DNA from: Oceanicola sp. 502str15
Lineage (GTDB): Bacteria; Pseudomonadota; Alphaproteobacteria; Rhodobacterales; Rhodobacteraceae
Direction of reading: 5' to 3'
Assembly (NCBI RefSeq): GCF_024105635.1
Contig: NZ_WYDQ01000001.1
Coordinates: 682,001-746,000, forward strand
Length of the DNA: 64,000 bases
Below the pieces are notes generated by a model that saw only the letters and a list, made by a program, of their open reading frames with translations, did no database searches and was not told the origin of the DNA. The translations under genes and the position numbers were made by a program. Positions 22,553 to 58,657 of this stretch are shown here, in pieces (the stretch's first letter is position 1; the number at the start of each line of letters is the position of its first letter).

Positions 22553-22569
22553 CGCAAGGCATCGTTGCA
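22553..22569. promoter_or_regulatory. Island operator-like dyad 1
   Basis: CGCAAGG-CAT-CGTTGCA, a match to TGCAACG-N3-CRTTGCA. It lies 74 bp before the start of the minus-strand dehydrogenase and pairs with the site 66 bp to the right. Confidence 0.6.
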
Positions 22570-22618
22570 GGTTTTCGCGCCATGTTCGGCCGGGTGAAGC
22601 CAGGGGGCACGCTGGTTC

Positions 22619-22635
22619 TGCAACGCTGCATTGCT
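22619..22635. promoter_or_regulatory. Island operator-like dyad 2
   Basis: TGCAACG-CTG-CATTGCT in the divergent promoter region of the SDR/etf unit (minus) and the acyl-CoA synthetase (plus, start 22731). Confidence 0.7.
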
Positions 22636-22730
22636 GCCCGAAGGGCGCAGGGGGCATTGGCACCGGGCGTTCAGGCCCGCATGTTTCACGGGACCTTCTC
22701 AAGCGGAAAGAACTGCTGATCGGACCCGCC

Positions 22731-24479
22731 ATGACACCTGAAGCCCAAGACCCGGCCCGGCCGGTTTTCGATGCACCGGCGCAGCGCCGCAAGGCGCTTG
22801 AAGCCATCACCGGCACATGGGAGCCGATGACGATTGCGCAGGCGCTGGACCGGGCCTGCGCGCGATATGCTGACCGCCCGTTCTGCCTGACCGACGAGAA
22901 AAGCTGGAGTTACGGCGAGATCCGCGATGCCGCCGACAAGCTGGCGGCACGGTTTCTGGCAGACGGGATTTCGGGGGGCGATCACGTGGGCCTGTGGCTG
23001 GCCAACTATGTGGAGTTCGTCATAGCGAAATTCGCCATTGCCCGGATCGGTGCGGTGGCGGTTCCGTTCAACTTCATGTTGCGGCAGACCGAGATCGCCT
23101 ATGTGCTGGAGCAGTCGGACTGCGTGGCGCTGGTGACGATGGATGCGTTTCGCGGGCACGATCATCTGGCCGATCTCGATGCGATCATGCCCGGTTGGGT
23201 GGAGCAGGCTGGCGGCGCGAAATTTCCCAAGCTGCGCAACATCTACCTTTGCCGGATCGAGGGCGAGGGCCGGGACGGCGCGCGGGCGCTCATTGACCCG
23301 GCATGGGAGCCGAGCGCGGCGCAGGTAGAGGCCGTCAGAGCCGCCGATGCCGAGGCCGCGCCGGAGGCCAATTGCGACATACTCTACACTTCGGGCACCA
23401 CCGGCCAGCCCAAGGGCGCGATGATTACCCATGACATGGTGCTGCGCACGGCCTACGCCTCCAACTACGCGATGGCGCGCGAGGAGGGCAGGCGGCTGCT
23501 GTTCGCGCTGCCGCTCTACCATGTGTTCGGCTACGTGGAGTGCATGATCGCGGCGATGTTCTTTGGCGGCGCGATCGTGCCGCGCCCGATCTTCGATGCC
23601 AATGACATGGTGGAGGCGGCAGAGCGTTTTCAGGTGGGAGAGATCACCTGCGTGCCGGTGATGACCAACCTGATGATGGAGGCGGTGCGAGCGCGGGGCG
23701 GCTTTGATTGCCCCTCGCTGATTGCCTATTTCAACTCGGGTGGGGTGAACCCGCCGGAGATCTGGGACGCGATCCGCGAGAGCTTTCGCCCGCGCGAGTT
23801 GCTGACCGGCTACGGCATGACCGAGACCACCGCTTCGACCTGTTGCTGCCTGCCCGAGGGCGATCGCAAGTGGCTGAGCCAGAGCAACGGGCGGCTGAAG
23901 GAGGCCGGCTGCGCGGGGTTTGCCGAGTTCGGCGGACGGCTGGCGGTTTACAAGGCGGTGGACCCGCAGACCGGCGCCGATTTGCCGCCGGGCGAGAAGG
24001 GCGAATTGCTGGTACGCGGCTACTGCGTGACGCCGGGATATTATCGCAAGCCGGAAGAGACCGCGCGGGCGATGACGGCAGATGGCTGGCTGAAAACGGG
24101 CGATGTGGGGACGGTGGATGCCCAGGGCTACGTGACGCTGCTCGGGCGGATCAAGGAATCCTATCGGTGCGGCGGCGAGATGGTGATGCCCGAGGAGGTC
24201 GAGAACTTTCTGCGGACCCATGAGGCGATCGAGGCGGCCTATGTGGTTGGCGTGCCGGATGCGCGGATGGGCGAGGTTGGCTGTGCGCTGATCGTCGCCA
24301 AGGGTGGCGCGGCCCCCGATGCCGCCTCATTGGACGGGTTTTGCCGCGACCGGATCGCGAGGTTCAAGATTCCGAAATTCGTCATTCCGGTGACGGCGCA
24401 GGATGTGCCCTTCACCGCGACCGGTCGCGCGCGGCGGGTGCATCTGGCGCAATATGCACGGGAGAAGCTGGGGCTGTGA
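22731..24479 (+). CDS. AMP-dependent acyl-CoA synthetase/ligase-like protein
   Basis: 582 aa, ANL superfamily. P-loop-like YTSGTTGQPKGA, the GYGMTETTAS motif and the GYVTLLGRIKES hinge region are clear. The usual C-terminal catalytic lysine motif (T-x-x-G-K) reads TATGRARR here, so the lysine is replaced by arginine; the codon is CGC. Such proteins may still thioesterify but should be weak at adenylation. It activates an organic acid of the pathway as a guess. The next gene, a thioesterase, starts 34 nt past the stop. Promoter carries the dyad at 22619. Confidence 0.85.
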   Translation: MTPEAQDPARPVFDAPAQRRKALEAITGTWEPMTIAQALDRACARYADRPFCLTDEKSWSYGEIRDAADKLAARFLADGISGGDHVGLWLANYVEFVIAKFAIARIGAVAVPFNFMLRQTEIAYVLEQSDCVALVTMDAFRGHDHLADLDAIMPGWVEQAGGAKFPKLRNIYLCRIEGEGRDGARALIDPAWEPSAAQVEAVRAADAEAAPEANCDILYTSGTTGQPKGAMITHDMVLRTAYASNYAMAREEGRRLLFALPLYHVFGYVECMIAAMFFGGAIVPRPIFDANDMVEAAERFQVGEITCVPVMTNLMMEAVRARGGFDCPSLIAYFNSGGVNPPEIWDAIRESFRPRELLTGYGMTETTASTCCCLPEGDRKWLSQSNGRLKEAGCAGFAEFGGRLAVYKAVDPQTGADLPPGEKGELLVRGYCVTPGYYRKPEETARAMTADGWLKTGDVGTVDAQGYVTLLGRIKESYRCGGEMVMPEEVENFLRTHEAIEAAYVVGVPDARMGEVGCALIVAKGGAAPDAASLDGFCRDRIARFKIPKFVIPVTAQDVPFTATGRARRVHLAQYAREKLGL

Positions 24480-24513
24480 CGGCCCGGTTCTTTCACAACA
24501 GGCGAGGCAGATA

Positions 24514-24954: not shown

Positions 24955-24964
24955 CGGCGCGTTC

Positions 24965-24981
24965 TGCAAAGCTCCGTTGCC
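24965..24981. promoter_or_regulatory. Island operator-like dyad 3
   Basis: TGCAAAG-CTC-CGTTGCC, 102 bp before the monooxygenase start at 25083. Confidence 0.6.
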
Positions 24982-25082: not shown

Positions 25083-26720
25083 ATGGACAAGCAGCCCGAT
25101 TTCGATGCGGTGGTGATCGGCGCCGGCCTGACGGGGCTTTACATGGCATATCGCCTGCGCGAGCTGGGATACAGCGTGCGCGGCATTGAGGCCTCCGACG
25201 ATATCGGTGGGGTCTGGCACCAGAACCGCTATCCCGGCGCGCGCATCGACTCCGAGAGTGAGGTATACGGGTACTTCTGGAATGAAGAGCTGATGCAGGA
25301 GTTCAACTGGAGCGAGCGGTTCGCGGCCCAGCCCGAGGTGCTGAAATACATCCACCGCGCCAATGACTACATGGATATCCGAAAGGACTACATGTTCAAC
25401 GCGCGGGTCGGGGGGGCGGCTTTTGACGAGGATAGCGGCCTCTGGACGATCACCTTTCAGGATGGCGGCAAGGCGCCGCTGACCGCGCGCTTCGTGTTTT
25501 CGGCGCTTGGCCCGCTTTCGGCGCCGCAGATGCCCAATGTGCCCGGCGTGCATACCTTCACGGGCACCAGCCTTCACACCGCCCAGTGGCCACGTGATCC
25601 CGATGGCTTGGGGCCGGCCAAGCTGGACCTGAAGGGCAAGCGGATCGCGGTGATCGGCACCGGCTCTTCCGGGGTGCAGGTGATACAGGAGATGGCGAAG
25701 ATCGCCGGGGAGCTGACGGTTTTCCTGCGCTCGCCCAACTGGTGCACGCCGCTCGGAAACGGCCCGATGAGCGCGGAGCGGATGGCGGCGATCAAGGCGG
25801 ATTACGGCAGCTTCATCGACAAGTGCGACCGTTCGATAGCCGGGTTTCCCCATGAGTTCATCGAGCGCGACATTTTCGATGTGCCCAAGGAGGAGCGCGA
25901 CGCCAAGCTGGAAGAGCTTTACAACGGCCCCGGTTTCTCGCTCTGGCTCGGGGCCTATCAGGATGTGCTGATGACCCCGGAGGCCAATAAATACGTTTCC
26001 GATTTCGTGGCCGAAAAGATCCGCCAGCGGGTCAAAGACCCGGCCGTTGCGGAAAAGCTGATCCCCAAGGATCACGGCTTCGGAATGAAGCGCGTGCCGC
26101 TGGAGACCCGCTATTACGAGGTTTACAATCAAGACAACGTGTCGATCGTGGATCTCAACGAAACACCGATCACGCGGATCGAGCCAGAGGGCATCCGCAC
26201 CGGCGAGGCGTTGCACGAGTTCGATGTGATCATCTATGCCACCGGGTTTGATGCGATCAAGGGATCGTGGAACCGCATCGATGTGCGGGGCAAGGGCGGG
26301 CTGAAGCTGAAGGACGAATGGGACAAGGGCGTGAAGACCTATCTGGGGCTTCAATGCGGCGGTTTTCCCAACTTCTTCACCCTGGTTGGGCCGCAGAACC
26401 CGGCGACCTTCTGCAACATCCCGCGCTGCTCGGCTGTGGTGGTCGACTGGCTGAGCGAGATGATGGAGCACGCGAGGGCAGAGGGCATCCGCCGGATCGA
26501 GCCGGAGAGCGCGGCCATCGACTCCTGGACCGGCTATTGCGACAAGCTGATGAGCCGGATGCTGCTTGGGCAGACGAACTCGTGGTTTACCGGGATCAAC
26601 AAGAATATCGAGGGCCGCGACAAGCGGGAGACGCTGCTTTTTGTTGGTGGCAACCCGAAGTTTCGCCAGTATAGCGAAGACGTGCGCGATAACGGCTACC
26701 GGGGATTTCAGTTTTCCTGA
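25083..26720 (+). CDS. Baeyer-Villiger-type flavin monooxygenase (CHMO group)
   Basis: 545 aa. FAD loop GAGLTGLYMA, the conserved GGVWHQNRYPGARIDSES, NADPH loop GTGSSGVQ, and the fingerprint FTGTSLHTAQWP, which fits F-x-G-x-x-x-H-x-x-x-W-P of class I Baeyer-Villiger enzymes. These insert oxygen next to a ketone, turning cyclic ketones into lactones. Size and lack of an N-terminal extension put it with cyclohexanone- or phenylacetone-type enzymes. Unlike the second one (56439-58280), it has the usual Pro after Trp. ATG 25083 sits behind AAGGAG. Confidence 0.88.
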   Translation: MDKQPDFDAVVIGAGLTGLYMAYRLRELGYSVRGIEASDDIGGVWHQNRYPGARIDSESEVYGYFWNEELMQEFNWSERFAAQPEVLKYIHRANDYMDIRKDYMFNARVGGAAFDEDSGLWTITFQDGGKAPLTARFVFSALGPLSAPQMPNVPGVHTFTGTSLHTAQWPRDPDGLGPAKLDLKGKRIAVIGTGSSGVQVIQEMAKIAGELTVFLRSPNWCTPLGNGPMSAERMAAIKADYGSFIDKCDRSIAGFPHEFIERDIFDVPKEERDAKLEELYNGPGFSLWLGAYQDVLMTPEANKYVSDFVAEKIRQRVKDPAVAEKLIPKDHGFGMKRVPLETRYYEVYNQDNVSIVDLNETPITRIEPEGIRTGEALHEFDVIIYATGFDAIKGSWNRIDVRGKGGLKLKDEWDKGVKTYLGLQCGGFPNFFTLVGPQNPATFCNIPRCSAVVVDWLSEMMEHARAEGIRRIEPESAAIDSWTGYCDKLMSRMLLGQTNSWFTGINKNIEGRDKRETLLFVGGNPKFRQYSEDVRDNGYRGFQFS

Positions 26721-26831: not shown

Positions 26832-26848
26832 TGCATACCAGCGTTGCG
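26832..26848. promoter_or_regulatory. Island operator-like dyad 4 (degenerate)
   Basis: TGCATAC-CAG-CGTTGCG, one good half-site (CGTTGCG) and one poor, 100 bp before the ABC substrate-binding protein gene. Confidence 0.4.
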
Positions 26849-26947: not shown

Positions 26948-27934
26948 ATGAGACCGATCTTGCTGGCAACCTGTGCCACCTTTCTTGCCGCGCCGGCCTT
27001 TGCGCAGGCCACATCCGAGGCCTGCGCGGCCGCCGCAGGGGAGCCGCCGCTGGTGTGGTATTCTTCGCAGGATCCGTCCCGGAACGAGGCCGCCGCAGAG
27101 GCCTTTACCGCCGCCAACCCGGAGATCGAGATCGAGCATTTCCGCCTCTCGACCGGCAAGTTGGCAACGCGCTATGCCACGGAGCGGGACGCGGGCGTCA
27201 TCTACGCCGATGTCATCTCGCTGGCCGATCCGGTGTTCATCGCGCAGGGCAACGCCGATGGGTGGTTTGCTCCGCTCTCCAAGGAGGAGATCCCTGCGCT
27301 GGCCGGGTTCGACGATGCGTGGCTCGAGAACAACGCGGTGACCACGAGCCTGAGCATGTTGGGTTTTGCCTATAACACCGATCAGGCGGGAGACGCTGCG
27401 CCGGTGAGCTGGGAGGACATCCTGAAGCCCGAATACAAGGGCCGGATCATCCTTGGCGATCCGCGCAACGTGCCTTCTTACATGGCGCTTTTCCGCATTC
27501 TGAAGGACAAGCTGGGAGAGGATTATCTCACGCGGCTGGCCGAGCAGGAACCGGTCCTCGTGCCCAGCGTGGTGCCCGCCACCCAGCAGCTTGCTGCCGG
27601 AGAGGTGGCGATCGTGCTGCCCAACGTGATGACCGTGGTGCGGGTGCTCAAGGAGGAGGGTGCGCCGATTGACTTTACGGCCCCCGAGCTGACCACCGGC
27701 AACGAGTTCGAGACGATGATCTCGCAGGGCGCCGACAGCCCGAATGCGGCGGTCTGTTTCCTGTCCTTCCTGCTTTCGGACGAGGGGCAGATTGCCTACA
27801 ACGGGCTCACCAGCGTGTCCCCCAAGCAGGCCTACGACGAGACCGCGCCGATGCCGGGGGATTACGTCGATCCGGATATCGCCTCGATCGGGGATGACGC
27901 GCCGGAAATCGTCAGGCTTCTGAAGCTGGAATAG
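26948..27934 (+). CDS. ABC transporter substrate-binding protein (Fe3+/polyamine type)
   Basis: 328 aa. Signal peptide 1-21 (APAFA). The mature protein reads like the AfuA/FbpA/PotD group: LVWYSSQDPS start, GFAYNTDQ, KPEYKGRIILGDPRN. ATG 26948 follows GGGAGG. First gene of a three-gene transporter unit with the ATPase and a fused permease. This family also carries thiamine, phosphonates and organic acids, so the cargo is open. Confidence 0.85.
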   Translation: MRPILLATCATFLAAPAFAQATSEACAAAAGEPPLVWYSSQDPSRNEAAAEAFTAANPEIEIEHFRLSTGKLATRYATERDAGVIYADVISLADPVFIAQGNADGWFAPLSKEEIPALAGFDDAWLENNAVTTSLSMLGFAYNTDQAGDAAPVSWEDILKPEYKGRIILGDPRNVPSYMALFRILKDKLGEDYLTRLAEQEPVLVPSVVPATQQLAAGEVAIVLPNVMTVVRVLKEEGAPIDFTAPELTTGNEFETMISQGADSPNAAVCFLSFLLSDEGQIAYNGLTSVSPKQAYDETAPMPGDYVDPDIASIGDDAPEIVRLLKLE

Positions 27935-27942
27935 GATCTCAC

Positions 27943-29070
27943 GTGCGGCAGGAAAGCATGGCAGAGGCCACCTCCGGGCTGGCCTTGGAGGTGACTGGCC
28001 TCAGGAAGACATTCCGCCGGTCCGATGGCGGGATGGTCCGGGCGATCGACGATGTGTCGCTGCGGGTCGGGCAGGGGGACTTCGTGGTGCTGCTGGGGCC
28101 GAGCGGCTGCGGCAAGACCACCTTGCTGCGGGCCGTGGCCGGGCTGGAAACGCCCGACGAGGGGCGGATTGCGGTGCCGCGCGGCCCGCTGTTCGACAGT
28201 GCCGCTGGGCTGGATCTGGCCCCGGAGCGGCGTCAGGTGGGCATGGTTTTTCAGAGCTATGCGCTTTGGCCGCACATGACGGTGGCGCGCAATGTGGCTT
28301 ACCCGATGCGGATGCGCGGCGTGGCGAAAGGCGAGCGGGACCGGCGGGTTTCGGAGATCCTTCAGAAGATGCATATCGGCGATCTTGGGCCGAGCTATCC
28401 TTCAGCCATCAGCGGGGGGCAGCAGCAGCGCGTTGCACTGGCGCGGGCACTGGTGTGCGGCGATCCGTTGATCCTGTTCGACGAGCCGCTTTCGAACGTC
28501 GATGCCAAGGTGCGCGAGCACCTGCGGCTGGAGATCCTGACGATGCAGCGCGAGTTCGGCTTTACCGCGCTTTACGTCACCCATGATCAGGAAGAGGCGA
28601 TGGCCCTGGCCAGCCACATTGCCGTGGTCGATGCCGGGCAGGTGGTGCAATACGGCGTTCCCGAAGAGATTTATGCGCAGCCGGCCACCTTGGATGTGGC
28701 GCGTTTCATCGGCACCGCCAACGAGCTGCCGGTGGAAATCGGCGAGGGCGGCGCGCTGACAACGCCGGCCGGGCAGGTGAGGGTTGCGGCGCCGCCGCCC
28801 GGAGGCGGTGGCAGGGATGCGATCCTGCTGAGCCGCCCCGAGCAGTGGCGCATCATGCCCCGTGGCGCGGAGGGGCTGCATGGGCGGGTGGTGTCTTCGG
28901 CCTTTCTGGGGCCGGTGATGGAACATGTGGTGCAGCTTGAAACCGCGGGTCCCGAGGTGCTGACCTTGCTGATCCGCGGCGGGGCAGTCACGCGGTTTGC
29001 TGTGGGCACCGAGGTGAGTTGCCTGATCGAGCCGGACGGGCCGATGCTGTTTGCGGCAGAGCCTGCATGA
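27943..29070 (+). CDS. ABC transporter ATP-binding protein (FbpC/PotA-like)
   Basis: 375 aa. Walker A GPSGCGKTT, signature SGGQQQRVALARAL, Walker B ILFDEP and THDQEEAM H-loop in the first 240 residues, then a TOBE-type C-terminal domain. I take GTG 27943 (AGGA at 6 nt); ATG 27958 is the alternative. Powers uptake with the neighbouring binding protein and permease. Its stop overlaps the permease start by 4 nt. Confidence 0.9.
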   Translation: MRQESMAEATSGLALEVTGLRKTFRRSDGGMVRAIDDVSLRVGQGDFVVLLGPSGCGKTTLLRAVAGLETPDEGRIAVPRGPLFDSAAGLDLAPERRQVGMVFQSYALWPHMTVARNVAYPMRMRGVAKGERDRRVSEILQKMHIGDLGPSYPSAISGGQQQRVALARALVCGDPLILFDEPLSNVDAKVREHLRLEILTMQREFGFTALYVTHDQEEAMALASHIAVVDAGQVVQYGVPEEIYAQPATLDVARFIGTANELPVEIGEGGALTTPAGQVRVAAPPPGGGGRDAILLSRPEQWRIMPRGAEGLHGRVVSSAFLGPVMEHVVQLETAGPEVLTLLIRGGAVTRFAVGTEVSCLIEPDGPMLFAAEPA

Positions 29071-30773: not shown

Positions 30774-30803
30774 AAAAGGCGCGCGGGGGTGAGCCCGCGC
30801 GCC
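30774..30803 (-). terminator. Terminator of the LysR gene
   Basis: GGCGCGCGGG (30778-30787) and CCCGCGCGCC (30794-30803) form a perfect 10-bp stem with a six-base loop; on the minus strand TTTT follows. It also sits just past the convergent permease stop. Confidence 0.75.
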
Positions 30804-30830
30804 CTGAGCGCTCCGCCCGCTGCGTGGCGA

Positions 30831-31781
30831 CTATTCGCCAGCGGCGAGGGCGAGCGGGGCCTGCTGATCGAAGTAGGACTGGCGCTTGAAGCTTTCCACC
30901 ATGAAGTCGATGAAGGTGCGGACCTTCTTGCACTGGCTGCGGCTGGGCATGAAGACCGCGTAGATGCCGTGGTTGAAGTCGTCGACCGTGACTTCGAAGT
31001 CGGTGAGGATCTCTACCAGCCGCCCGCTGCGGAGGTCTTCGCGCACCGACCAGTCGGTCATATGGCCGATGCCGACATGGCTTCGCAGCGAGCGCCGGAT
31101 CATCGAGCCGTTGTCGGTGGTGAGTTGGCCCTCGGGTTCGATGACGTATTCCTCGCCGCCCGGATCGCGGAAGCGCCAGACCACCGGGTTGGCATCCATC
31201 TTGCAGACGATGCAGTTGTGCGCCTTCAACTCTTCGGGCGTGGTCGGCTCGCCGTGCATGGCAAGATACTCGGGGCTGGCGACGATAACGCGGCGCGAGT
31301 CGGCCAGCTTGCGGGCGATCAGCATGGAATCCTGAAGAACGCCGGTTCTGATGTCGACGTCGATGCCGTGCTTAAGCATGTCGATGTTATGCTCGTTGGT
31401 CATGGAAATGGAGACCGAGATTTCGGGATTTTCCTTGAGGAATAGCGGGATCAGCGGGGCCACGCAAATGTTGCCGATGGCCACGCGGGAGTGGACCTTG
31501 AGCATGCCCTTCGGCTCGGAATGCACGCCCTTGGCGTAGGCGGTGGCCTCTTCGAGATCGGCGAGAATCCGTTCGACCTTGGGCAGATAGGCCTCCCCGG
31601 CCTCGGTCAGACCGAGCTTGCGGCTGGTCTTGGCCAGTAGGTTAAAGCCGAGTTGCCGCTCGAGGCTGTCGATGCTGCGCGACACCGTTGCGGGCGATAT
31701 GCCCAGTTCGCGCGCCGCCGCCGACAGGCTGCCGACTCGAACCGCTTCTGCGAAATGACGCAGGCTGTGCAATGTATCCAT
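30831..31781 (-). CDS. LysR-family transcriptional regulator
   Basis: 316 aa. Winged helix-turn-helix at about 1-60 (RVGSLSAAARELGISPATVSRSIDSLE) and a periplasmic-binding-protein-like effector domain. Not adjacent to one obvious target: it lies between the ABC transporter (convergent) and the MaoC/thiolase operon (divergent). A 20-bp dyad 98 bp upstream of its start is a candidate binding site. Could sense a pathway intermediate; direct evidence absent. Confidence 0.9.
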   Translation of the reverse strand: MDTLHSLRHFAEAVRVGSLSAAARELGISPATVSRSIDSLERQLGFNLLAKTSRKLGLTEAGEAYLPKVERILADLEEATAYAKGVHSEPKGMLKVHSRVAIGNICVAPLIPLFLKENPEISVSISMTNEHNIDMLKHGIDVDIRTGVLQDSMLIARKLADSRRVIVASPEYLAMHGEPTTPEELKAHNCIVCKMDANPVVWRFRDPGGEEYVIEPEGQLTTDNGSMIRRSLRSHVGIGHMTDWSVREDLRSGRLVEILTDFEVTVDDFNHGIYAVFMPSRSQCKKVRTFIDFMVESFKRQSYFDQQAPLALAAGE

Positions 31782-31878: not shown

Positions 31879-31898
31879 AGAAAACCGATGAGTTTTCT
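31879..31898. promoter_or_regulatory. 20-bp perfect dyad, candidate LysR operator
   Basis: AGAAAAC (31879-31885), six bases, GTTTTCT (31892-31898). It is unlike the 17-bp island dyad, and lies in the LysR/MaoC divergent region, the usual place for a LysR site. Confidence 0.5.
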
Positions 31899-32034: not shown

Positions 32035-32051
32035 CGTAATGCTGCGTTGCG
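32035..32051. promoter_or_regulatory. Island operator-like dyad 5
   Basis: CGTAATG-CTG-CGTTGCG; nearly the same as the site at 47373. It lies 196 bp before the MaoC gene start. Confidence 0.6.
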
Positions 32052-32717: not shown

Positions 32718-32731
32718 GGAGACAGCCAAAT

Positions 32732-35601: not shown

Positions 35602-35613
35602 CGGGGCAGGGCG

Positions 35614-37657: not shown

Positions 37658-37674
37658 TGCAACGGTGCATTGCC
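37658..37674. promoter_or_regulatory. Island operator-like dyad 6
   Basis: TGCAACG-GTG-CATTGCC, 144 bp before the SMP-30 gene that opens the long plus-strand unit to 46603; a further CGTTGCA (37674-37680) starts at its last base. Confidence 0.65.
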
Positions 37675-45436: not shown

Positions 45437-46603
45437 ATGAGAGAACTGCTGATAGGTGCCGCGATGGCGCTGGCCGCGTCTGGAGCATGGGCGCAGCAAC
45501 AAGGGGTGTCGGATACGGAGATCGTGATCGGCGAGAGCGATCCGTTGAGCGGCCCGGCGGCGAGCGTCGGGCTGGCCCATGCGATCGGCACCAAGCTGGC
45601 GGTGGCCGAGGTCAACGCGAATGGCGGGATCGGCGGGCGCACTGTTCGGCTGATCCAGGAAGATGACGGCTACGTGCCGTCGCGCACGGTTCAGACGGTG
45701 CGCAAGCTCATCGACGTGGACAAGGTCTTTGCGATCCTCAACACCTCCAGCAGCGCGGGCTCGCTCGGTGTGGTCGACATGATCGACGAGGCGCCGGTGG
45801 TGATGATGAACACCTTCGTCAACAACACCAACCTCTGGACCCCTCCACGAGACAACATCTTCTCAATTGGGCAGGGCTATCCGCAGCTCGCGTTCCAGAC
45901 GGTGAAATACATCGACTCCCAAGACCCCAATGCAGTTTGGGCGATCATCGTGCAGAATGACGACTTCGGCGACAACCTCGTCGAAGGTGCCGAGCGGGCG
46001 CTGGAGCAGCTCGGCAAGGACTCCGCGCTGACGATCCGTTACAACCGGGGCCAGAAGGATTTTTCGGCAGAGATGCTGCGGGTCAAACAGGCTGGGGCAA
46101 CGGCGCTGTTTTCCGGCGCGATCTCGACCGAGAACGTTTCGATTGCCCGCGAGGCGGTGAAGTTCGGGCTGGATATCGACTTCGGTATGATGTGGACCAT
46201 CCACCTTGACGCCGTCCGCGACCTGATGGGCGCGCCTGCTCAGGATGCCGTCTTTGCCGAATATACCTCGGTTCTGGACGAGAGCGCCGCGCAGCCGATC
46301 CTGAAGCTGGCGGATGAGTTCCTGAGCGCGGATGAGCGGGCCGCTGTCAACCGCACGACTCTGGCGGCCTATGCCGGGGCGAAGGTGCTGTTTGATGCGA
46401 TGGCCCAATGCGAGGCCGAGCTGACGCAGGCCTGCGTGATCGAAAAGCTGGAGGGCGCCAAGGACATCGAGACCGGCGCGATGGCGCCAACGACCTTTGG
46501 CCCCGGTGTGCGCTTCTCGGATCAGAAGGTTCGGATCATCCGAAACGACTTTGCCAATACGGCCTTCGTGCCGATGACCGAGTTCGAAGCAGTCGACTAC
46601 TGA
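45437..46603 (+). CDS. Branched-chain-type ABC substrate-binding protein (LivK-like)
   Basis: 388 aa. Signal peptide 1-19 (SGAWA); the Periplas_BP_6 fold is clear from VIGESDPLSGPAA and the paired lobes with ITVN-like loops. ATG 45437 with AAGGGAGGA. The gene ends at 46603, overlapping the convergent TetR gene by 7 bp. Cargo unknown. Confidence 0.88.
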   Translation: MRELLIGAAMALAASGAWAQQQGVSDTEIVIGESDPLSGPAASVGLAHAIGTKLAVAEVNANGGIGGRTVRLIQEDDGYVPSRTVQTVRKLIDVDKVFAILNTSSSAGSLGVVDMIDEAPVVMMNTFVNNTNLWTPPRDNIFSIGQGYPQLAFQTVKYIDSQDPNAVWAIIVQNDDFGDNLVEGAERALEQLGKDSALTIRYNRGQKDFSAEMLRVKQAGATALFSGAISTENVSIAREAVKFGLDIDFGMMWTIHLDAVRDLMGAPAQDAVFAEYTSVLDESAAQPILKLADEFLSADERAAVNRTTLAAYAGAKVLFDAMAQCEAELTQACVIEKLEGAKDIETGAMAPTTFGPGVRFSDQKVRIIRNDFANTAFVPMTEFEAVDY

Positions 46604-47265
46604 CGGCTGGCTTGCCCGGAAGCATGGCTTTCGGGCAAGGACGCCCGCGCTTCGCTGGTATCGGCCTGAAAGCCGCGCAGGAACAGGTCGATGAAGGCTT
46701 CGACGAATTCATCGGCTGAGCGCGCGCCGTCATTGCTGTACCAAGCCGGAATCCAATTGACGACGCCCATGGAAAAGAGCTTGCCGATCTTGGGATCGCA
46801 GGGCCGGATCGAGCCGTCGGAGACGCCCTGTTCGATCAGTTCGTCGGTGGCATGGCTGATAGCGGCGCGCCGTTTGACCACGACCTCGCGCAGTTCGGGG
46901 GCGAGGGAGTTCACATCGGTCAGCATGGCGAGGTTTCCCAGTTCGCCAAAGGCGCCCTGCATGTAGCGGCGCAGATAGATCAGGAATTTCTCAAGACCGT
47001 TGCCACTGTGTTTGGCCGCCATTTCGAGACCGGACTCGCCGTGCTGCATGGAGACCACGTGGCATTCGTAGAGGATGGCCTGTTTGCTGTCGAAATACTG
47101 GTAGAGGGTCGCCTTGGAGATTCCGAGGCTGGAGGCCACGTCACCCATCGAGGTATTGGCGAACCCGTTCTTGCTGAAGGCCATCGCGGCGGTTCGAAGA
47201 ACTTCTTCCTTCCGGCGGCGACGGAGGTCTTCCCGGTCAAACGCGCTGGCGGCTTTCAAATCCAC
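46597..47265 (-). CDS. TetR-family transcriptional regulator
   Basis: 222 aa. Helix-turn-helix at about 30-60 (SMGDVASSLGISKATLYQYFDSKQAIL) and an all-helical ligand domain. Divergent from the ligase at 47487, with one dyad between. TetR proteins bind short palindromes and release on acyl-CoA or similar ligands, and the island holds twelve dyads, so it is the best candidate for the regulator. Confidence 0.88.
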   Translation of the reverse strand: MDLKAASAFDREDLRRRRKEEVLRTAAMAFSKNGFANTSMGDVASSLGISKATLYQYFDSKQAILYECHVVSMQHGESGLEMAAKHSGNGLEKFLIYLRRYMQGAFGELGNLAMLTDVNSLAPELREVVVKRRAAISHATDELIEQGVSDGSIRPCDPKIGKLFSMGVVNWIPAWYSNDGARSADEFVEAFIDLFLRGFQADTSEARASLPESHASGQASRQ

Positions 47266-47372
47266 AGTCCTTCAATAGCAAGAGTCACAGGCCCGGCAGG
47301 TCCGGGCAGAGGGGTTGTAGGGTGAGGTTAGCAGTTTTTCCCCTGCTAAGGACGGGCGAGTTGGCAGATTCA

Positions 47373-47389
47373 CGTAATGCTGCTTTGCG
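47373..47389. promoter_or_regulatory. Island operator-like dyad 7
   Basis: CGTAATG-CTG-CTTTGCG in the TetR/ligase divergent promoter, 108 bp from the TetR start. Confidence 0.6.
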
Positions 47390-47486
47390 AGCTCCGGGCC
47401 GGGATCGTCAAGTCCTGATGTTGTTCCAAAGGCGCAAGGGAAGTAGCGTTCGGGCAACTGAAAACCCTCAATACGGGGAGTTCAAG

Positions 47487-48995
47487 ATGAACTTCGGCAC
47501 TCTGATATTGAACGCCGCCGCATCTCAGCCGGAGGCGCGGGCGATCAGCTTTCAAGGCAGCACGGTGACCTATGGCACGCTGGCGGACAGGGCGCGGCGG
47601 CTTGCTGCGGGCTTGCTGGAGCGGGGGCTGTTGCCCGGCGACCGGGTGCTGCTTCAGATGCACAATTGCGGCGAATATCCCGAGCTGCTGATCGGGGCAT
47701 GGGCCGCGGGGCTGGTCGTTGTGCCGGTCAACGCGAAGCTGCATGCCCGGGAGGTCGAGCATATTCTGGAGAACTCGCAGGCCCGGTTGGTCTTTACCAG
47801 TGCAGGGGTGCCGGATCTGGAGAGCGATGTGGAGACGGTGGCTTGCGGCGGGGCGGCCTATGAGGGCCTGCTTGGCACGGAGCCGATCAAGGCGCTGGCG
47901 GAAACCGCACCGGAAGATCTGGCCTGGCTGTTTTACACCTCAGGCACCACCGGACGCCCGAAGGGGGCAATGCTTTCGAACCGCAACCTGCTGGCGATGG
48001 CGAATGCCTATTATGCGGATATCGACCAGCTTGGCCCGGACGATACGATGCTGGTTGCGGCCCCGGCCTCGCACGGGGCGGGCCTTTACCTGCTGGCGGC
48101 GTTGCTCAAGGGCGCGCATGTGGTCATCTCTGCGGGCTTCGACATTGCCGAGGCGGAGCAAGTGGTGCGCGATAACGAGAAGGTCTCGCTCTTCGCGGTG
48201 CCGACCATTCTCAACCGGCTGGTGGCGGCATGGGGCGGATCGGAAGTGCCACTCGAGAACGTGAAGACCATCGTTTACGGCGGTGCGCCGATGTATGTGG
48301 CCGACCTCGAGCGCGCGATCGGTGTGTTCGGAGCGCGCCTGTTTCAGCTTTTCGCGCAGGGCGAGAGTCCGATGACGGTGAGTGGATTGCCTCAGCGCCT
48401 GCATCGCACGGATTTGCCGGAGTCCGCGCGGTTGCTCTCATCCTGCGGTTATCCGCGCACCGGCTATGCCTTCCGGATCTGCGATCCGGACAGCGGCGAA
48501 GAGCTGCCGTTCGGGGAGACCGGGGAGATATGCGCGCAGGGCGAGGCGGTTATGCTGGGATACTGGAAGAACGAGGAGGCAACCGCCAAGGCGCTGCGCG
48601 AGGGCTGGCTGTGCACCGGTGACCTCGGCTTTTGCGATCCGGACGGGCTCTTGCATGTTGTCGATCGCTCCAAGGACATGATCATCAGCGGCGGCACCAA
48701 TATCTATCCGCGTGAGGTGGAAGAGGCGTTGTTGACCCATCCTGCCGTGGCAGAGGTTGCGGTGATCGGCATTCCTGACCCGGAGTGGGGCGAGTCGGTT
48801 GTGGCCTGCGTGGTCAGGGCAGGCGGGGCCGAGGTGGGCGAGGCGGAGCTCGATGAGCATGTCTGCAACCACATCGCCCGCTTCAAGCGCCCCAAACTCT
48901 ATCGCTTCATGGATGAACTGCCCAAGAGCGATTACGCCAAGATCCTGAAATCGGAGCTGCGCAAGGCTATGGGCGGGGAGCTGGCTGCGACCTGA
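47487..48995 (+). CDS. AMP-dependent acyl-CoA ligase
   Basis: 502 aa. FYTSGTTGRPKGAMLS, the GYWKNEEATAKAL hinge, IISGGTNIYPREVEEAL, and the C-terminal lysine in YAKILKSELR. ATG 47487 with GGGGAG; a longer frame from 47322 overlaps the promoter. Third ANL protein of the island. Confidence 0.9.
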   Translation: MNFGTLILNAAASQPEARAISFQGSTVTYGTLADRARRLAAGLLERGLLPGDRVLLQMHNCGEYPELLIGAWAAGLVVVPVNAKLHAREVEHILENSQARLVFTSAGVPDLESDVETVACGGAAYEGLLGTEPIKALAETAPEDLAWLFYTSGTTGRPKGAMLSNRNLLAMANAYYADIDQLGPDDTMLVAAPASHGAGLYLLAALLKGAHVVISAGFDIAEAEQVVRDNEKVSLFAVPTILNRLVAAWGGSEVPLENVKTIVYGGAPMYVADLERAIGVFGARLFQLFAQGESPMTVSGLPQRLHRTDLPESARLLSSCGYPRTGYAFRICDPDSGEELPFGETGEICAQGEAVMLGYWKNEEATAKALREGWLCTGDLGFCDPDGLLHVVDRSKDMIISGGTNIYPREVEEALLTHPAVAEVAVIGIPDPEWGESVVACVVRAGGAEVGEAELDEHVCNHIARFKRPKLYRFMDELPKSDYAKILKSELRKAMGGELAAT

Positions 48996-49042: not shown

Positions 49043-49059
49043 TGCAACGCAATATTGCA
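49043..49059. promoter_or_regulatory. Island operator-like dyad 8
   Basis: TGCAACG-CAA-TATTGCA, 67 bp before the 6-oxocamphor hydrolase-like gene. Confidence 0.7.
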
Positions 49060-49917: not shown

Positions 49918-49926
49918 GGGCGCGCG

Positions 49927-51833: not shown

Positions 51834-51850
51834 TGCAAACATCGTTTGCA
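51834..51850. promoter_or_regulatory. Island operator-like dyad 9
   Basis: TGCAAAC-ATC-GTTTGCA, a perfect 7+7 palindrome in the divergent region between the dehydrogenase and the amidohydrolase. Confidence 0.65.
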
Positions 51851-53009: not shown

Positions 53010-53050
53010 GAGGTGCTGCGGGCGCCGGTGGCGGCCCCGGAGAGGGGTCG

Positions 53051-54355
53051 CTAGCCGAACATCTCGGGCAGCAGCAACACGATGTCGGGGAAGGCGATGA
53101 GCAGCAGCAGAACGATTGCATCAGCGATTAGGAAATAGACCACCCCCTTGAAGATCGTGCCAAGGGTCACGCCTTCGCCGAGCACTGACTTGATCACGAA
53201 GACATTGAGCCCGACAGGGGGCGTTATCATCCCGATCTCCAGCAGTTTGACGATGATCACGCCGAACCAGATCATATCGAACCCGGCATTGGCCGCGACC
53301 GGGATGAGGATGGGAAGGGTGAGCAGCATCGCGCCCGTCGGGTCAAGGAACATGCCGAGGACAAGGTAGATCAGGGCGATGAAGGCCAGCAGCAGCATGG
53401 GATCGCCGCTGATCTGGATGACGAAGGCGGCGATGCCCTCGTCGGCGCCGCTCAGCGAGACGAAGCGGGTCAGCATGTTGGCGCCGATGGCGATGATGAA
53501 GAGGGTCGCAGAGGTGGTGAAGGATTCGACCAGCGATTTGCGGAAATTGACCCAGGTCAGGGTGCGCATGAAGAGGGCGACGAGGATCGAGATGCCCGAT
53601 CCGACCGCTCCGGCCTCGGTGGGCGTGAACAGGCCGGTGAAGAGGCCGCCGAAAACCGCCCCCGCGAGCACGATGGCGGGGAGGATGGAGGGTAGGGTCC
53701 GCACGCGGTCGCGGATGGTGTATTGCTCGGTGAGGCGCGGGGCAGCAGAGGGCTTGAGCAGCACCCAGATGACGATCACGAGCATGTAAGAGAGGACCGT
53801 CAGGAGGCCCGCCATGGCGCCGCCGAGGAACAGCTTGCCGATGGGCTGCTCGGCGAGGATGCCGAAGATGATGAAGATGATGCTGGGCGGGATCAGCGCG
53901 CCGACCGTGCCGGCGGCGGCGACGGTGCCCGTGGCAAGGCTCGGGCTGTAGTTGGAGCGCAGCATCTCGGGCACCGCGATGCGCCCCATGGCCGCAGCGC
54001 AGGCGACCGAGGAGCCGGTAATCGCGGCGAAGCCGGCCGAGCCGAAGACACTGGCGATGGCAAGCCCTCCGGGCAGCCGCACAAGCCAGACGCGCGCGGC
54101 GTTGAACAACCCGTGGGTAATGCCTGCGTGGTAGCAGAGAAAGCCCATGAAGAGGAACATCGGCACCGAGCTCAACTGCCAGTTCGCGGCGAAGCCGTAG
54201 GGTGCGATCTTCAATGTGCTGGTGGCCGCAGGAAGCCCGATCAGCGCCCAAATCCCCCCGAAAGATGCGGTGATCAGCGCGATGCCGATTGGCACGCGGA
54301 CCGCGATCATGACGAAGAGGGCGGCAAGGCCGATGAACCCGATTGCTTCATTCAT
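53051..54355 (-). CDS. dctM: TRAP transporter large permease (DctM)
   Basis: 434 aa, about twelve hydrophobic segments. PSIIFIIFGILAEQ, FLDPTGAMLLTLPI and TPPVGLNVFVIKS are DctM hallmarks. Imports organic acids with sodium. Last gene of a unit DctP-DctQ-DctM on the minus strand. Confidence 0.92.
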   Translation of the reverse strand: MNEAIGFIGLAALFVMIAVRVPIGIALITASFGGIWALIGLPAATSTLKIAPYGFAANWQLSSVPMFLFMGFLCYHAGITHGLFNAARVWLVRLPGGLAIASVFGSAGFAAITGSSVACAAAMGRIAVPEMLRSNYSPSLATGTVAAAGTVGALIPPSIIFIIFGILAEQPIGKLFLGGAMAGLLTVLSYMLVIVIWVLLKPSAAPRLTEQYTIRDRVRTLPSILPAIVLAGAVFGGLFTGLFTPTEAGAVGSGISILVALFMRTLTWVNFRKSLVESFTTSATLFIIAIGANMLTRFVSLSGADEGIAAFVIQISGDPMLLLAFIALIYLVLGMFLDPTGAMLLTLPILIPVAANAGFDMIWFGVIIVKLLEIGMITPPVGLNVFVIKSVLGEGVTLGTIFKGVVYFLIADAIVLLLLIAFPDIVLLLPEMFG

Positions 54356-54407
54356 CTGGTGTTACCTGTGATGCTGGATTGAGGAGGCAGGGCGCGGCAC
54401 TGGCGGA

Positions 54408-54917
54408 TCACTCCTCGACCGCGGCGGGCCTGTCGGTGCCGCGGATGTACCAATAGAACTGGGCGAGCAGATAGGCCGAGATCAGGCCGAAACCGATGGG
54501 CGGGCAGAACCGCCCGGGCCAGGTTTCAAAGCGCATGCCGCCTTCGATGAGAAACGCGCCAGAGCGGAACTTTGTCATCGCCTCGCCCCAGCCGTAGTAG
54601 GCCAGCAGGGCGAAGATGACGCAGGAAAACAGGTTGATCCAGGCCCGCAGGTGGCGCTGGAAAAGCCGCGGTAGGTTGCCGGTGAAGACCTCGACCGCGA
54701 TGTGCTGGTCATACTTCTGCACCAGCGCGAGCGGGATGAAGGTGATGACCGGCATGTAATACTCGGTGACGATGGTGATGGTGCCCACCACAGGGGCGCC
54801 GAAGTAGAACTTGCCGATCACGTCAATGCAGATATGGAGGATCATGACCGCCACGACAGTGCCGGCCACGGCGATCGTGAGCGTTTCCAACAGCGAAGAT
54901 TTCGGGGCGCTGGTCAT
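54408..54917 (-). CDS. dctQ: TRAP transporter small permease (DctQ)
   Basis: 169 aa with four hydrophobic segments; GAFLIEGGMRFETWPGRFCPPIGF matches the DctQ family. Adjacent to the large permease and substrate-binding protein. Confidence 0.88.
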   Translation of the reverse strand: MTSAPKSSLLETLTIAVAGTVVAVMILHICIDVIGKFYFGAPVVGTITIVTEYYMPVITFIPLALVQKYDQHIAVEVFTGNLPRLFQRHLRAWINLFSCVIFALLAYYGWGEAMTKFRSGAFLIEGGMRFETWPGRFCPPIGFGLISAYLLAQFYWYIRGTDRPAAVEE

Positions 54918-54941
54918 GGGAGTGCCTTCGGCGGAAGAGGG

Positions 54942-54974
54942 GCCTCACCCCGGGGTGTCCGTTCGGAGTGAGGC
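54942..54974 (-). other. Hairpin between dctP and dctQ
   Basis: GCCTCAC (54942-54948) and GTGAGGC (54968-54974) form a 7-bp stem with further inner pairing (CCGT/TCGG area). No T-run follows. Such hairpins often stabilise the upstream dctP message so that the binding protein is made in excess. Confidence 0.5.
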
Positions 54975-55008
54975 GCAGGTTTGAGGGGATCGCTTGCGCG
55001 GGCGATGG

Positions 55009-56181
55009 TCAGTCCATGCCGTAGGTCGCGGGATCGATCTTGGAGTAGATCTCTTGCTGATAGAGGGCGGCGTAGCCGTCGCGGTCCATAAGGTCGATCT
55101 CGTTGGTGAGGCCCTTCCACTTTTCGATCAAGGACGCGGCCAGCTCGATCTTGCGATCGACATCGCTCACGCCATACTGGCTTTTGAATTGCTCGGCGAT
55201 GATGGCCAGATCGGCCTGCACGAAGTCGGCAGTGTGCTGGCGCAGATCCTCGCCGATCTCGTTGATGGTGATGCCGGCCTCGGTGGCAGCCTTGGTGGCC
55301 TGCGCGAGGTTGTTGTGCTGCTCCACGTTGATGTCAGCCGCGAGAACGGGCGAGGTGTTGAAGAGCAGTTTGCGGTTCTCCTCGGACAGGCTCATCCATG
55401 TGTCGATGTTGACCGTGTTGCTGGCAAATCCGGAATAGACGCCGCCGGGCACCCCAAGGAGGGCGGTATCCACCACGTCGAGCAGGCCGTTGGACACGAT
55501 GTCGGCGGTGCTCAGCATGTTGCAGTCGAGCACGCCTTGCGACATGGCGTCGAACACGTCGCCGGAGGGGATCGAGACCGTGGTGGCGCCGACCGACTCG
55601 GCCCAGCGGCCGAAGTTTGCGGCGCCGGAGCGGATTTTCTTGCCCTTCAGCTCTTCCAGGGTCGTCACCGAGCCTTCGCAGAGCAGGTCGTAGGGGTTGG
55701 TGGAGCCGGGGGACAGAAACACCTGTCGCTGCGCCTTGAACTGGGCGAGGCACTCTGGGCAGTTCAGCAGGACATATTCCATCATCGCGCCGGTCGCCGC
55801 CGCGCCGGGCGATTTCGCGGGCGTGCCCGAGGTGGCCAGCATCGAGAGGTTGGCCATCAGGTTCATCTCGGAATATTCGGCCGGCAGGTAGGCCGTTACC
55901 ACGAAGCCGATGCCGACAATGCCGTCTCGAAGGCCACCGGCAACTTCGGACTGCTTGAGCAGCGCCTCGCCGTATTGCTTGATCTCCATATCGCTGTTCT
56001 CGTTGAGATAGGCGATGTTCTTGGCGATGGCCTTGGTCACCGCGTTGGCATCGGCCTGCGGAATGGAAAACCGGATTTCAGCCTGCGCCGCCGGAGCAAG
56101 GCAGCAGAGCGCGGCGGCGCTTGCCATCATCGAGCGCCGTGCCGCCCAGTTCCAGGCCCGTTTTAGGATTTTCGTTTGCAT
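55009..56181 (-). CDS. dctP: TRAP transporter substrate-binding protein (DctP)
   Basis: 390 aa. Signal peptide 1-34 (cut near APAAQA). DctP fold: KKIRSGAANFGRWAESVGATTVSIPSGDVFDAMSQG is the conserved centre. ATG 56181 with GGGAGG. Contains Asn/Asp residues at the carboxylate-binding site in the conserved spots. Cargo unknown, likely an acid. Confidence 0.9.
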   Translation of the reverse strand: MQTKILKRAWNWAARRSMMASAAALCCLAPAAQAEIRFSIPQADANAVTKAIAKNIAYLNENSDMEIKQYGEALLKQSEVAGGLRDGIVGIGFVVTAYLPAEYSEMNLMANLSMLATSGTPAKSPGAAATGAMMEYVLLNCPECLAQFKAQRQVFLSPGSTNPYDLLCEGSVTTLEELKGKKIRSGAANFGRWAESVGATTVSIPSGDVFDAMSQGVLDCNMLSTADIVSNGLLDVVDTALLGVPGGVYSGFASNTVNIDTWMSLSEENRKLLFNTSPVLAADINVEQHNNLAQATKAATEAGITINEIGEDLRQHTADFVQADLAIIAEQFKSQYGVSDVDRKIELAASLIEKWKGLTNEIDLMDRDGYAALYQQEIYSKIDPATYGMD

Positions 56182-56438
56182 CTGTTCCTCCCAAGATTCA
56201 AAACTGTTTTTCGTTCGTCATTCGTCCTGCTCCCGGTCTCCGGCTGTGTCGCCGGCCCCGCAGGGAGCAAGGTGTATTCGAGCACGTCGGGCGGTGGACG
56301 CTCGGTGAGCTTTCGAGGCCACCCGGGACGGGTTTTCGCCTGACAAGTCTCAGTCGCGGAAGGCGTTTTTCCAACAACGTAGGTCGCAACGGAGCATTGC
56401 AGCTTCCCCCTTGCCCGGGCCTGGGCGGCTCGGGTGGG
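56182..56438. other. Non-coding stretch, promoter of the TRAP unit
   Basis: 257 bp between the TRAP substrate-binding protein start and the end of the monooxygenase. Contains the dyad at 56385. No gene seen. Confidence 0.5.
56385..56401. promoter_or_regulatory. Island operator-like dyad 10
   Basis: CGCAACG-GAG-CATTGCA, 204 bp before the TRAP substrate-binding protein gene. Confidence 0.6.
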
Positions 56439-58280
56439 TCAGTCCAGCGCGGTCATCTTCAGGCCGGGCATGCCCTCGTCGAGCCATGTGAGGACCATCT
56501 CGCGATATTTGGCGAAGCCGCCGCCGTAGCGTTGTGACAGGAACCCGCGATATTTGCTCGGGTCGCCCTCGTTGTTGTAATAGCTGGGCGTGCACTCGCG
56601 GTAGAAATCCATGTTGTCGAGCGCCACCTCGCGGAAGTGGTCGACATAGGCCTGGACTGCCTCGTCGGTCGGCTCCACGACCGAGGCGCCGACGCTTTTG
56701 GCCTGCTTGAGGATACGGGCGATATATTGCGACTGAAGCTCGGCGGGGTAGAGGTAGTTCACGTCGCCCGGACCCTGCGCGGGCCCCATGAAATAGAGGT
56801 TCGGGTAGCCGTTGGAGGTGACGCCGTGCAGGGTGCGGTAGTCGTCGGCCCAATGGGTGCTGAGGGGCAGGCCATCACGACCGTAGACCTCGATCTCGGC
56901 GCGGCGGGTATACTCGGTGCCGACCTCGAATCCGGTTGCGAAGATGATGCAATCCACCTCCACCTCCTGCCCGTTGATGACGAGGCCCTTGGCGGTGATC
57001 CGCTCCACGCCCCGGCCCTGCGTGTCGAGCAGGGTTACGTTTGAGCGGTTGAACATGGGCAGGTAGTTGTCGTTGAAGGTGGGGCGCTTGCAGAAGAAGC
57101 GATACCACGGCTTGAGCGCCTCGGCGGTGTCCTCGGACTGCACGAACTCTTCGACCCGGGAGCGGATCTCGTTCATCTTCTGGGCGTCGGCGATCTCCAT
57201 GTACCGATCGCGCTCTTCATCGGTCATGTCGTCGTGGCTCTGGACGCGGAAGGCGATGGCGCCGAGGATCTTCATCAGATCGGTCCAGCCGTCGCTGACG
57301 AGATCCTTCTCCTGAGGAACGCCCGAGACGAGCTTCTGGAAGTTGGATCTGCGCTCTTCCTGCCAGCCTTCGCCGAGGCTTCCTTGCCATGCCGGGTCGG
57401 TCGGTTTGTTGCCTCGTGGGCCGACAGCGACAGGGGTGCGCTGGATCACATAGAGATGCTCTGCGCTCTTGGCGATGAAGGGCGCCACCTGAATGCCGGT
57501 TGCGCCGGTGCCGATCAGGGCCACGCGCTTGTCGGAAAGCTTGTGCTGGTTCCCCGTGGTGTCGCCGCCGGTATAGTCATAGTCCCAGCGGCTGGTGTGG
57601 AAGGATTTGCCTTCGAAGTCGAGAATGCCGGGGATGCCCGGCAGTTTGGGGCGGTTGAGGCTACCGCAGGACAGCACCACATGGCTGGCGGTGAAGCTGT
57701 CGCCGTGGTTCGAACTGACTTGCCAGCGGGCGTCCTCGTCGCTCCATCGCAGGCCGGTGATCTGGGTGTGGAACAGGGCGCGCTCCTCCAGCCCGAAGTG
57801 CTTGGCCACCCGGTCGGCGTGCTCGCGGATTTCCTTCCCGAATGAGTATTTCTCCTTCGGGACGTAGCCGGTCTCTTCCAGCAGAGGCATGTAGATGTAG
57901 GATTCAATGTCGCATTGGACGCCGGGGTAGCGGTTCCAATACCAGGTGCCGCCGAAGCCGCCGCCATTGTCGGCGATCCGGACGTTCTGGATGCCCGATT
58001 GTAGTGCCCGAACGGCGGCCAACATGCCGCTCCAGCCGCCGCCGACGACCAGTAGGTCGACATGATCGGACAGAGGCGCCCGGCTGGCGCCCGGCGTTGC
58101 ATCGGGGTCTTCGACGTATTTGCGAAAGGCCCCTTCGACTTCGACGAACTGCTTTAGACCGTCCTTCCGCAGACGGCGGTCTCGCTCCTCGCGGTATTTC
58201 GCGCGCAGTGCTTCGATGTCTATGCTTTCGATATCTGCCGCAAGGGTTGGGTCCGGGGTGGGAGCTGCGGTGTCGGCCAT
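56439..58280 (-). CDS. Baeyer-Villiger-type flavin monooxygenase with N-terminal extension
   Basis: 613 aa. A helical, charged extension of about 70 residues precedes the FAD loop GGGWSGMLAA. GGTWYWNRYPGVQCDIESY, NADPH loop GTGATGIQ and the fingerprint FEGKSFHTSRWDYD fit Baeyer-Villiger enzymes, with Asp instead of Pro after Trp. Size and extension resemble cyclopentadecanone and steroid monooxygenases, which take bulky ketones. ATG 58280. Divergent from the SDR/SnoaL-like pair with two dyads between. Confidence 0.86.
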   Translation of the reverse strand: MADTAAPTPDPTLAADIESIDIEALRAKYREERDRRLRKDGLKQFVEVEGAFRKYVEDPDATPGASRAPLSDHVDLLVVGGGWSGMLAAVRALQSGIQNVRIADNGGGFGGTWYWNRYPGVQCDIESYIYMPLLEETGYVPKEKYSFGKEIREHADRVAKHFGLEERALFHTQITGLRWSDEDARWQVSSNHGDSFTASHVVLSCGSLNRPKLPGIPGILDFEGKSFHTSRWDYDYTGGDTTGNQHKLSDKRVALIGTGATGIQVAPFIAKSAEHLYVIQRTPVAVGPRGNKPTDPAWQGSLGEGWQEERRSNFQKLVSGVPQEKDLVSDGWTDLMKILGAIAFRVQSHDDMTDEERDRYMEIADAQKMNEIRSRVEEFVQSEDTAEALKPWYRFFCKRPTFNDNYLPMFNRSNVTLLDTQGRGVERITAKGLVINGQEVEVDCIIFATGFEVGTEYTRRAEIEVYGRDGLPLSTHWADDYRTLHGVTSNGYPNLYFMGPAQGPGDVNYLYPAELQSQYIARILKQAKSVGASVVEPTDEAVQAYVDHFREVALDNMDFYRECTPSYYNNEGDPSKYRGFLSQRYGGGFAKYREMVLTWLDEGMPGLKMTALD

Positions 58281-58589
58281 GATCTTTGTATCCTCTCAAT
58301 GCGCGGAGACGGGCGGAGACGCGGAGCGCCTCTTGGGCTCGGAGCCTTTCGCTCAACGATTTCACGCCCTATGAAACTGGCCTCACTTCAGGGTCTGAGC
58401 CTCGAGCTGTCAATCACGCGCCGAGGGCTGCGCGGGGTGGGGCGGCAGGCAGACATATGCGGATCCGGGGCAGCGGAAAGCTCTGCGGGTGTTTCTGAAA
58501 AACATATTCAAAACAGGTGCTTGCTTGCGATTCAGTAGTCCATTGGCGCGCCGTGGCGGCAGGGCGCGCGGTGCCGGGAGGCGAAAGGC

Positions 58590-58606
58590 TGCAACGCTGC
58601 TTTGCC
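58590..58606. promoter_or_regulatory. Island operator-like dyad 11
   Basis: TGCAACG-CTG-CTTTGCC, 51 bp from the next dyad (start to start). Confidence 0.65.
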
Positions 58607-58640
58607 GGTTTCGTCGCCTCTGGACGGGGTGGATTTCAAC

Positions 58641-58657
58641 TGCAACGCAACGTTGCA
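58641..58657. promoter_or_regulatory. Island operator-like dyad 12 (best palindrome)
   Basis: TGCAACG-CAA-CGTTGCA, perfect 7+7 dyad, 107 bp before the dehydrogenase start. Confidence 0.75.

Follow-up and report, generated by a model that had tools for sequence, protein, structure and literature searches.

The usual operator consensus of LysR-type regulators is T-N11-A within an interrupted dyad, which is no criterion for the protein. AphB of Vibrio, a member of this family, is described in the excerpted account as binding at tcpP to a site of the form TGCAA-N7-TTGCA, from which other AphB sites depart (PMC8911003). In Pseudomonas aeruginosa SJTD-1, the related CrgA governs a gene for a catabolic monooxygenase; according to the part of the source used here, it represses this gene from two mirror-like sites of another kind than GCAA-N7-TTGC and is released by long-chain acyl-CoA (PMC6422896). 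As far as these excerpts go, the AphB motif is thus not common to the whole CrgA group, and a LysR relative can repress and be released by an acyl-CoA. CrgA of Neisseria and AphB have both been solved, as 3hhg and 3szp, respectively.

A second group of comparable systems is formed by the TetR-family regulators of CoA-ester catabolism with the domain TetR_C_24, such as KstR2 and FadR; PfmR is another of this kind. TetR proteins often control catabolic genes through regulons with several sites, KstR and PsrA being examples. Among the entries listed for the open-access full-text literature, no description of the regulon presented below was found.

The DNA analysed (the window) is a stretch of 64,000 nucleotides from Oceanicola sp. 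502str15. It contains an island of 44 kb (16693-60371) that is inserted in a tRNA-Asn gene and holds all twelve of the dyads considered here (Table 1). The island is of the tRNA-integrated type: it is flanked by a direct repeat of the 3' end of the tRNA, and in the three genomes of the same genus examined for this (G002, G003 and G004, of six) the flanks adjoin and the block is missing. Unlike other islands of this type, it has no integrase among its called genes: none was recognised by Pfam or NCBIfam in 35 of the 39, and the other four match ABC transport genes. No homolog of the island TetR at E 1e-30 and none of the island LysR at 1e-70 was found in the six genomes of the genus, one of which is 87% complete.

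The island encodes two Baeyer-Villiger-type monooxygenases, three CoA ligases, a lactonase-like protein, three uptake systems, thiolase-type proteins with a ChsH2-type OB domain, a MaoC protein, acyl-CoA dehydrogenases, an ETF pair, a 3-hydroxyisobutyryl-CoA hydrolase and a 3-hydroxyisobutyrate dehydrogenase. This gene content suggests the breakdown of a cyclic, branched compound, and a p-menthane-type terpenoid giving isobutyryl-CoA would fit. The two 3-hydroxyisobutyrate-related genes stand at the left island end, together with an acyl-CoA dehydrogenase gene (16820-19959), and suggest isobutyryl-CoA as a product of the pathway. The MaoC protein, a thiolase-like protein and a ChsH2-type OB-fold protein are grouped at 32247-34365, a trio that resembles the retro-aldolase set of steroid side-chain degradation.

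Table 1 Dyads, regulators and other features of the tRNA-Asn island. Positions are those of the window, scores are those of the symmetric weight matrix, and distances run to called gene starts
Feature	Position	Strand	Context and evidence
Left 46-bp direct repeat (3' part of tRNA-Asn)	16647..16692		Exact match to 60372-60417
Dyad CGCAAGGCATCGTTGCA	22553..22569		Divergent SDR / CoA ligase gap; score 19.1; 73 bp to SDR start
Dyad TGCAACGCTGCATTGCT	22619..22635		SDR / CoA ligase gap with 22553; score 22.2; 191 bp to ligase start
Dyad	24965..24981		Upstream of Baeyer-Villiger-type monooxygenase 25083-26720; score 20.9; 101 bp to start
Second Baeyer-Villiger-type monooxygenase	25083..26720	+	NCBIfam NF045818, 218 bits, below cut-off
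Dyad (weak)	26832..26848		Upstream of ABC uptake operon 26948-30773; score 17.2, leave-one-out 14.7; 99 bp
LysR-type regulator, favoured binder	30831..31781	-	Pfam LysR_substrate and part of HTH_1; LysR structure matches
Dyad	32035..32051		Divergent LysR / MaoC-thiolase operon gap; score 19.8; 253 bp to LysR, 195 bp to MaoC
Dyad	37658..37674		Upstream of SMP-30-type (lactonase-like) / CoA transferase / ABC transport genes; score 20.9; 143 bp
TetR-family regulator (TetR_N, TetR_C_24), rival binder	46597..47265	-	Pfam; relatives beside same ligase
Dyad	47373..47389		Divergent TetR / CoA ligase gap; score 19.8; 107 bp to TetR, 97 bp to ligase
AMP-forming CoA ligase divergent from TetR	47487..48995	+	Domain match; ligase also beside TetR in relatives
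Dyad	49043..49059		Upstream of crotonase / zinc dehydrogenase pair; score 20.5; 66 bp to start
Dyad TGCAAACATCGTTTGCA, perfect	51834..51850		Divergent SDR / amidohydrolase gap; score 16.8, leave-one-out 12.6; 74 and 217 bp
TRAP transporter DctM, DctQ, DctP	53051..56130	-	Pfam
Dyad	56385..56401		Upstream of TRAP transporter DctP; score 22.0; 254 bp to called start
Baeyer-Villiger-type flavin monooxygenase (PtlE-like)	56439..58280	-	NCBIfam NF045818, 686 bits, below 1100 cut-off
Dyad	58590..58606		Divergent monooxygenase / SDR gap; score 22.8; 309 bp to monooxygenase start
Dyad, perfect	58641..58657		Monooxygenase / SDR gap with 58590; score 23.6; 106 bp to SDR start
Right 46-bp direct repeat	60372..60417		At tRNA-Asn 60373-60447 (-)

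The original prediction listed twelve copies of a dyad TGCAACG-N3-CRTTGCA, and a dyad could be read directly at each of the twelve positions. As a consensus the proposed motif is too long: it fits eight of the sites at no more than two mismatches and 32035 at three, while 26832, 47373 and 51834 have more than three, four sites in all fitting poorly. The stable core of the sites is GCAA-N7-TTGC, which is exact in nine and has one mismatch in the other three. The centre base is A or T in every site; the remaining inner positions carry little information in the weight matrix. One further exact match to the core in the window, at 28112, is intragenic. Both 51834 and 58641 are perfect 7+7 palindromes, as had been stated, the arm of 51834 being TGCAAAC and not TGCAACG. 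A symmetric weight matrix built from the twelve sites ranks them 1 to 12 in the window, with scores of 16.8-23.6 against 12.5 for the next match, a ranking that is circular for the sites used in building it. Leave-one-out scores range from 12.6 to 22.2; the minimum belongs to 51834, which scores barely above the best non-site, so that its location and its perfect palindrome are what speak for it.

Genes were taken from a simple, purpose-made gene caller, and results on overlap depend on the called starts. With these starts, none of the twelve sites overlaps a gene and all lie upstream of island genes, at 66-309 bp from the start in 15 site/gene pairs, while uncalled DNA makes up 9.2% of the stretch 16820-60210. 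This agrees with the intergenic or promoter position proposed for them; the longest possible starts would bring some overlap, as the open reading frame 47322-48995 covers the site at 47373. The claim of one or two sites per promoter also held, since ten of the eleven island intergenic gaps of at least 120 bp contain one or two. The sole exception is 33968-34122, where the gene start is uncertain. The two end gaps of the island have no dyad. A promoter scan of 22-38 kb gave one match, which is not at a dyad, and recognised no promoter elements at the sites in that part. It is very improbable that the dyads are RNA hairpins or copies of a dispersed repeat instead of operators. As palindromes they could fold as short hairpins, but they occur in promoter gaps of both the divergent and the one-way kind, they are alike in the core and unlike in the flanking bases, and the two convergent gaps of at least 25 bp (30774-30830 and 53010-53050) are empty.

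Scanning of the genome, for which enrichment in the island had been predicted, gave 40 distinct places with at most two mismatches to the motif, eight of them in the window against 0.47 expected (Poisson P 4e-8); at no more than one mismatch, five of the six places genome-wide are in the window. The distinct places were counted by hand from 60 rows of the pattern scan. In the 24 intergenic stretches of the island (4136 bases) the dyad has a weight of 11.5, compared with a mean of 1.44 and a maximum of 3.5 in 150 shuffles. Certain GC-rich dyads come close to this (11.0), and in the shuffles the top weight among all dyads averages 10.5; the excess is therefore one over the dyad's own expectation and not one of rank. 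With one mismatch allowed, the bare core hardly exceeds chance over the window (42 matches vs 30.0 expected, a number reached by 2 of 100 shuffles). As had been stated, the flanks are free of the motif: no score above 12.5 was found elsewhere in the window, and none of at least 11 in the roughly 10 kb to the left and 14 kb to the right of it.

Outside the window, 32 places have at most two mismatches. The top-scoring dyad outside the island (22.7), at genome position 2272869 (G000:C1; L032:5870), sits between reading frames that were judged by eye to be permease-like and malate-dehydrogenase-like. It is improbable that the protein on the dyads is a regulator encoded elsewhere in the genome or a third DNA-binding protein that escaped recognition. 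The place at 2272869 is the one outside the window that scores like the island sites, but the high-scoring outside places are about as many as the matrix predicts by chance for the genome (5 of the 32 at 16 or more), and the imported island itself encodes two regulators. A pattern scan of 295 genomes of the family gave no genome with more than three matches per strand, a scan so insensitive that the genome of the island itself reached only three and two.

A second genome with such dyads, G710, belongs to another genus of the same family; it is 70% complete and in 660 contigs. Relatives of the island TetR (66%) and of the divergent ligase (72%) are present in it, with a dyad scoring 16.2 in the gap between the two genes. 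No G710 site was used in building the matrix. The pattern search of this genome covered 21 loci, the best-ranked of several hundred matches, in which seven places score at least 16; the top three are on island-like contigs. Two of these, C73:232 and C73:291 (20.4 and 20.3), are 59 bp apart, and the nearer one is about 250 bp upstream of a DctP gene, on a contig with relatives of the island TRAP genes for DctP (61%), DctQ (51%) and DctM (75%). The third, C443:544 (20.4), is on a contig with relatives of the island ABC uptake genes (70 and 66%) and of DctP (53%). The gene downstream of it, at a distance of about 580 bp, is CoA-ligase-like, but its product has only 28% identity to that of 47487-48995, which makes C443 weaker evidence. 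Contigs without clear island genes hold the other four places (C122, 19.1; C96, 18.8; C11, 16.8; C33, 16.1). Since it was the pattern that led to C73 and C443, the informative part is that the best scores land on island-like contigs.

Candidate sites in further genomes were set aside. Three matches in Rhizobium (L020) scored 16.9-17.8, two of them overlapping; one is in a long reading frame and the others are 3.5 kb from the LysR homolog, island synteny is absent, and the locus was dropped. A match of 16.7 in G836, about 16 kb from its TetR gene and at the edge of a reading frame, and one of 16.1 in Peptococcaceae (L007) were both taken as chance.

The dyads are thus a real and well-defined set of putative operators on an acquired island. 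Control of the island units by one local regulator, as had been proposed, is well supported, because the sites are restricted to a tRNA-Asn island that is self-contained, because ten of its eleven larger intergenic gaps hold a dyad, and because similar dyads occur on island-like contigs of another genus. The acquired pathway seems to bring its own switchboard, and the twelve sites make up a ready operator set with which the spread of a regulator and its sites during the assembly of a catabolic island can be tested.

The TetR protein had been named as the best candidate for this regulator. The present analysis favours the LysR-type protein, and the first protein for bench work shifts accordingly. 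Chances are about even that the dyads are operators of this island-borne regulator. It has the two domains that define the type, HTH_1 and the substrate-binding domain. In the shorter frame searched with Pfam (30831-31685), LysR_substrate was matched at 9.2e-34 and HTH_1 with 25.7 bits, below the cut-off of 26.6 because this frame lacks the first residues. The longer frame matches LysR structures nearly end to end: 3hhg, the Neisseria CrgA, is the closest (1.6e-48), followed by 3t1b (1.1e-34), which we take to be AphB, and 3szp (1.5e-34). The best NCBIfam model is YafC (218 bits, below the cut-off of 470). The island protein is of the CrgA/AphB kind.

The dyads share the arms and the spacer of the tcpP operator of AphB as given in the excerpted source, the exact core of nine of the twelve agreeing with TGCAA-N7-TTGCA in a comparison of form. 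The T-N11-A pattern is absent from them: the T place is C in ten sites and T in two, and the A place is G in all twelve. The tcpP site, as excerpted, likewise has C and G at these places. To this likeness is added the near full-length alignment of AphB to the island protein; unlike AphB, which is distant in sequence and whose other described sites are off this form, the island protein is encoded in a catabolic island. The agreement with a published LysR-family operator is one reason for favouring the LysR protein.

Another comes from relatives of the TetR protein, which stand beside the ligase in three Xanthobacter genomes (57-62%) and in G836 (48%). The best score within 450 bp upstream of these genes is 8.6, and nothing scores above 11.2 in the three 20-kb Xanthobacter loci. 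A dyad is present beside the TetR relative of G710 and absent in all four others. A close LysR was not found in the same four genomes: the best in the Xanthobacter genomes are at 35, 37 and 38%, and G836 has none at 1e-50. The TetR/ligase genomes without a close LysR thus have no dyad in the TetR/ligase gap.

Several points speak against the LysR protein. G710 has dyads, but in its 70% complete genome no LysR was seen at E 1e-50, and twelve other homologs (31-44% identity) are without a good dyad within 450 bp upstream (best score 8.7); these distant homologs are probably not orthologs. The different sites of the Pseudomonas CrgA count against it as well. The LysR start is 253 bp from the nearest site, a long distance for a LysR protein that controls its own gene, and a set of twelve sites is large for a regulator of this family.

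It is rather unlikely, though less so than the readings dismissed above, that the TetR protein binds the twelve dyads, as a repressor that would be released by an acyl-CoA made through the divergent ligase. The protein has both TetR_N and TetR_C_24, and it shares its C-terminal domain and the adjoining CoA ligase gene with the TetR regulators of CoA esters; its matches to structures of KstR2 and fatty-acid regulators are weak, and as a binder of twelve dyads it is putative. A dyad is present in its own promoter, and the G710 dyad starts about 111 bp upstream of the TetR gene there, compared with 124 bp in the window. What keeps TetR in play is that G710 has this gene and dyads and no LysR that was seen at E 1e-50. 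The recognition helix, located by analogy with the family, reads SKATLYQYF in the window and in G710, SKPTLYQYF in Xanthobacter and TKPTLYRYF in G836, so that the dyad-less genomes have P for A and specificity may have shifted. Against TetR stand the dyad-less relatives, the likeness of the motif, on the excerpted evidence, to a LysR-family operator, and a separate perfect 7+7 dyad in the TetR/ligase gap, TTAGCAG-N8-CTGCTAA at 47328-47349. The latter may serve TetR as an operator of its own, apart from the dyad common to the island units. An operator common to the TetR genes of the window, Xanthobacter, G836 and G710 was sought by eye; TTAGYA-like half sites were seen with differing spacing, which was unconvincing.

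For the favoured LysR protein, we infer the binding protein, the direction of control and the ligand alike. It would bind as dimers to GCAA-N7-TTGC in front of the promoters of the island, sense an intermediate of the pathway, perhaps a CoA ester, and jointly switch the units for uptake, oxidation, ring-opening, CoA-activation and beta-oxidation. Activation would be more likely than repression, going by the habit of the LysR family and the position of the sites. Somewhat more tentative than the assignment of the operators is the fuller picture that the LysR protein commands the whole 44-kb island via twelve near-identical operators, superimposed on an older TetR-ligase core that is found without it in Xanthobacter and G836. 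TetR would then be the local regulator of this older ligase/transport core, possibly through 47328-47349.

Both regulators seem to belong to this kind of island. Homologs of the two appear to share three contigs (37546, 22247 and 96851 bases), in addition to one that is probably that of the window itself, as judged from equal sizes of the longest contigs and not from the DNA. Among the matches listed in scans of plasmids, the best LysR was at 44% and the best TetR at 40%; a scan of viral contigs with the LysR alignment gave two relatives, at 31%. The LysR gene also has a perfect dyad of another kind, GAAAAC-N6-GTTTTC (31880-31897), about 100 bp upstream of its start, and this is the only exact match to that sequence in the window.
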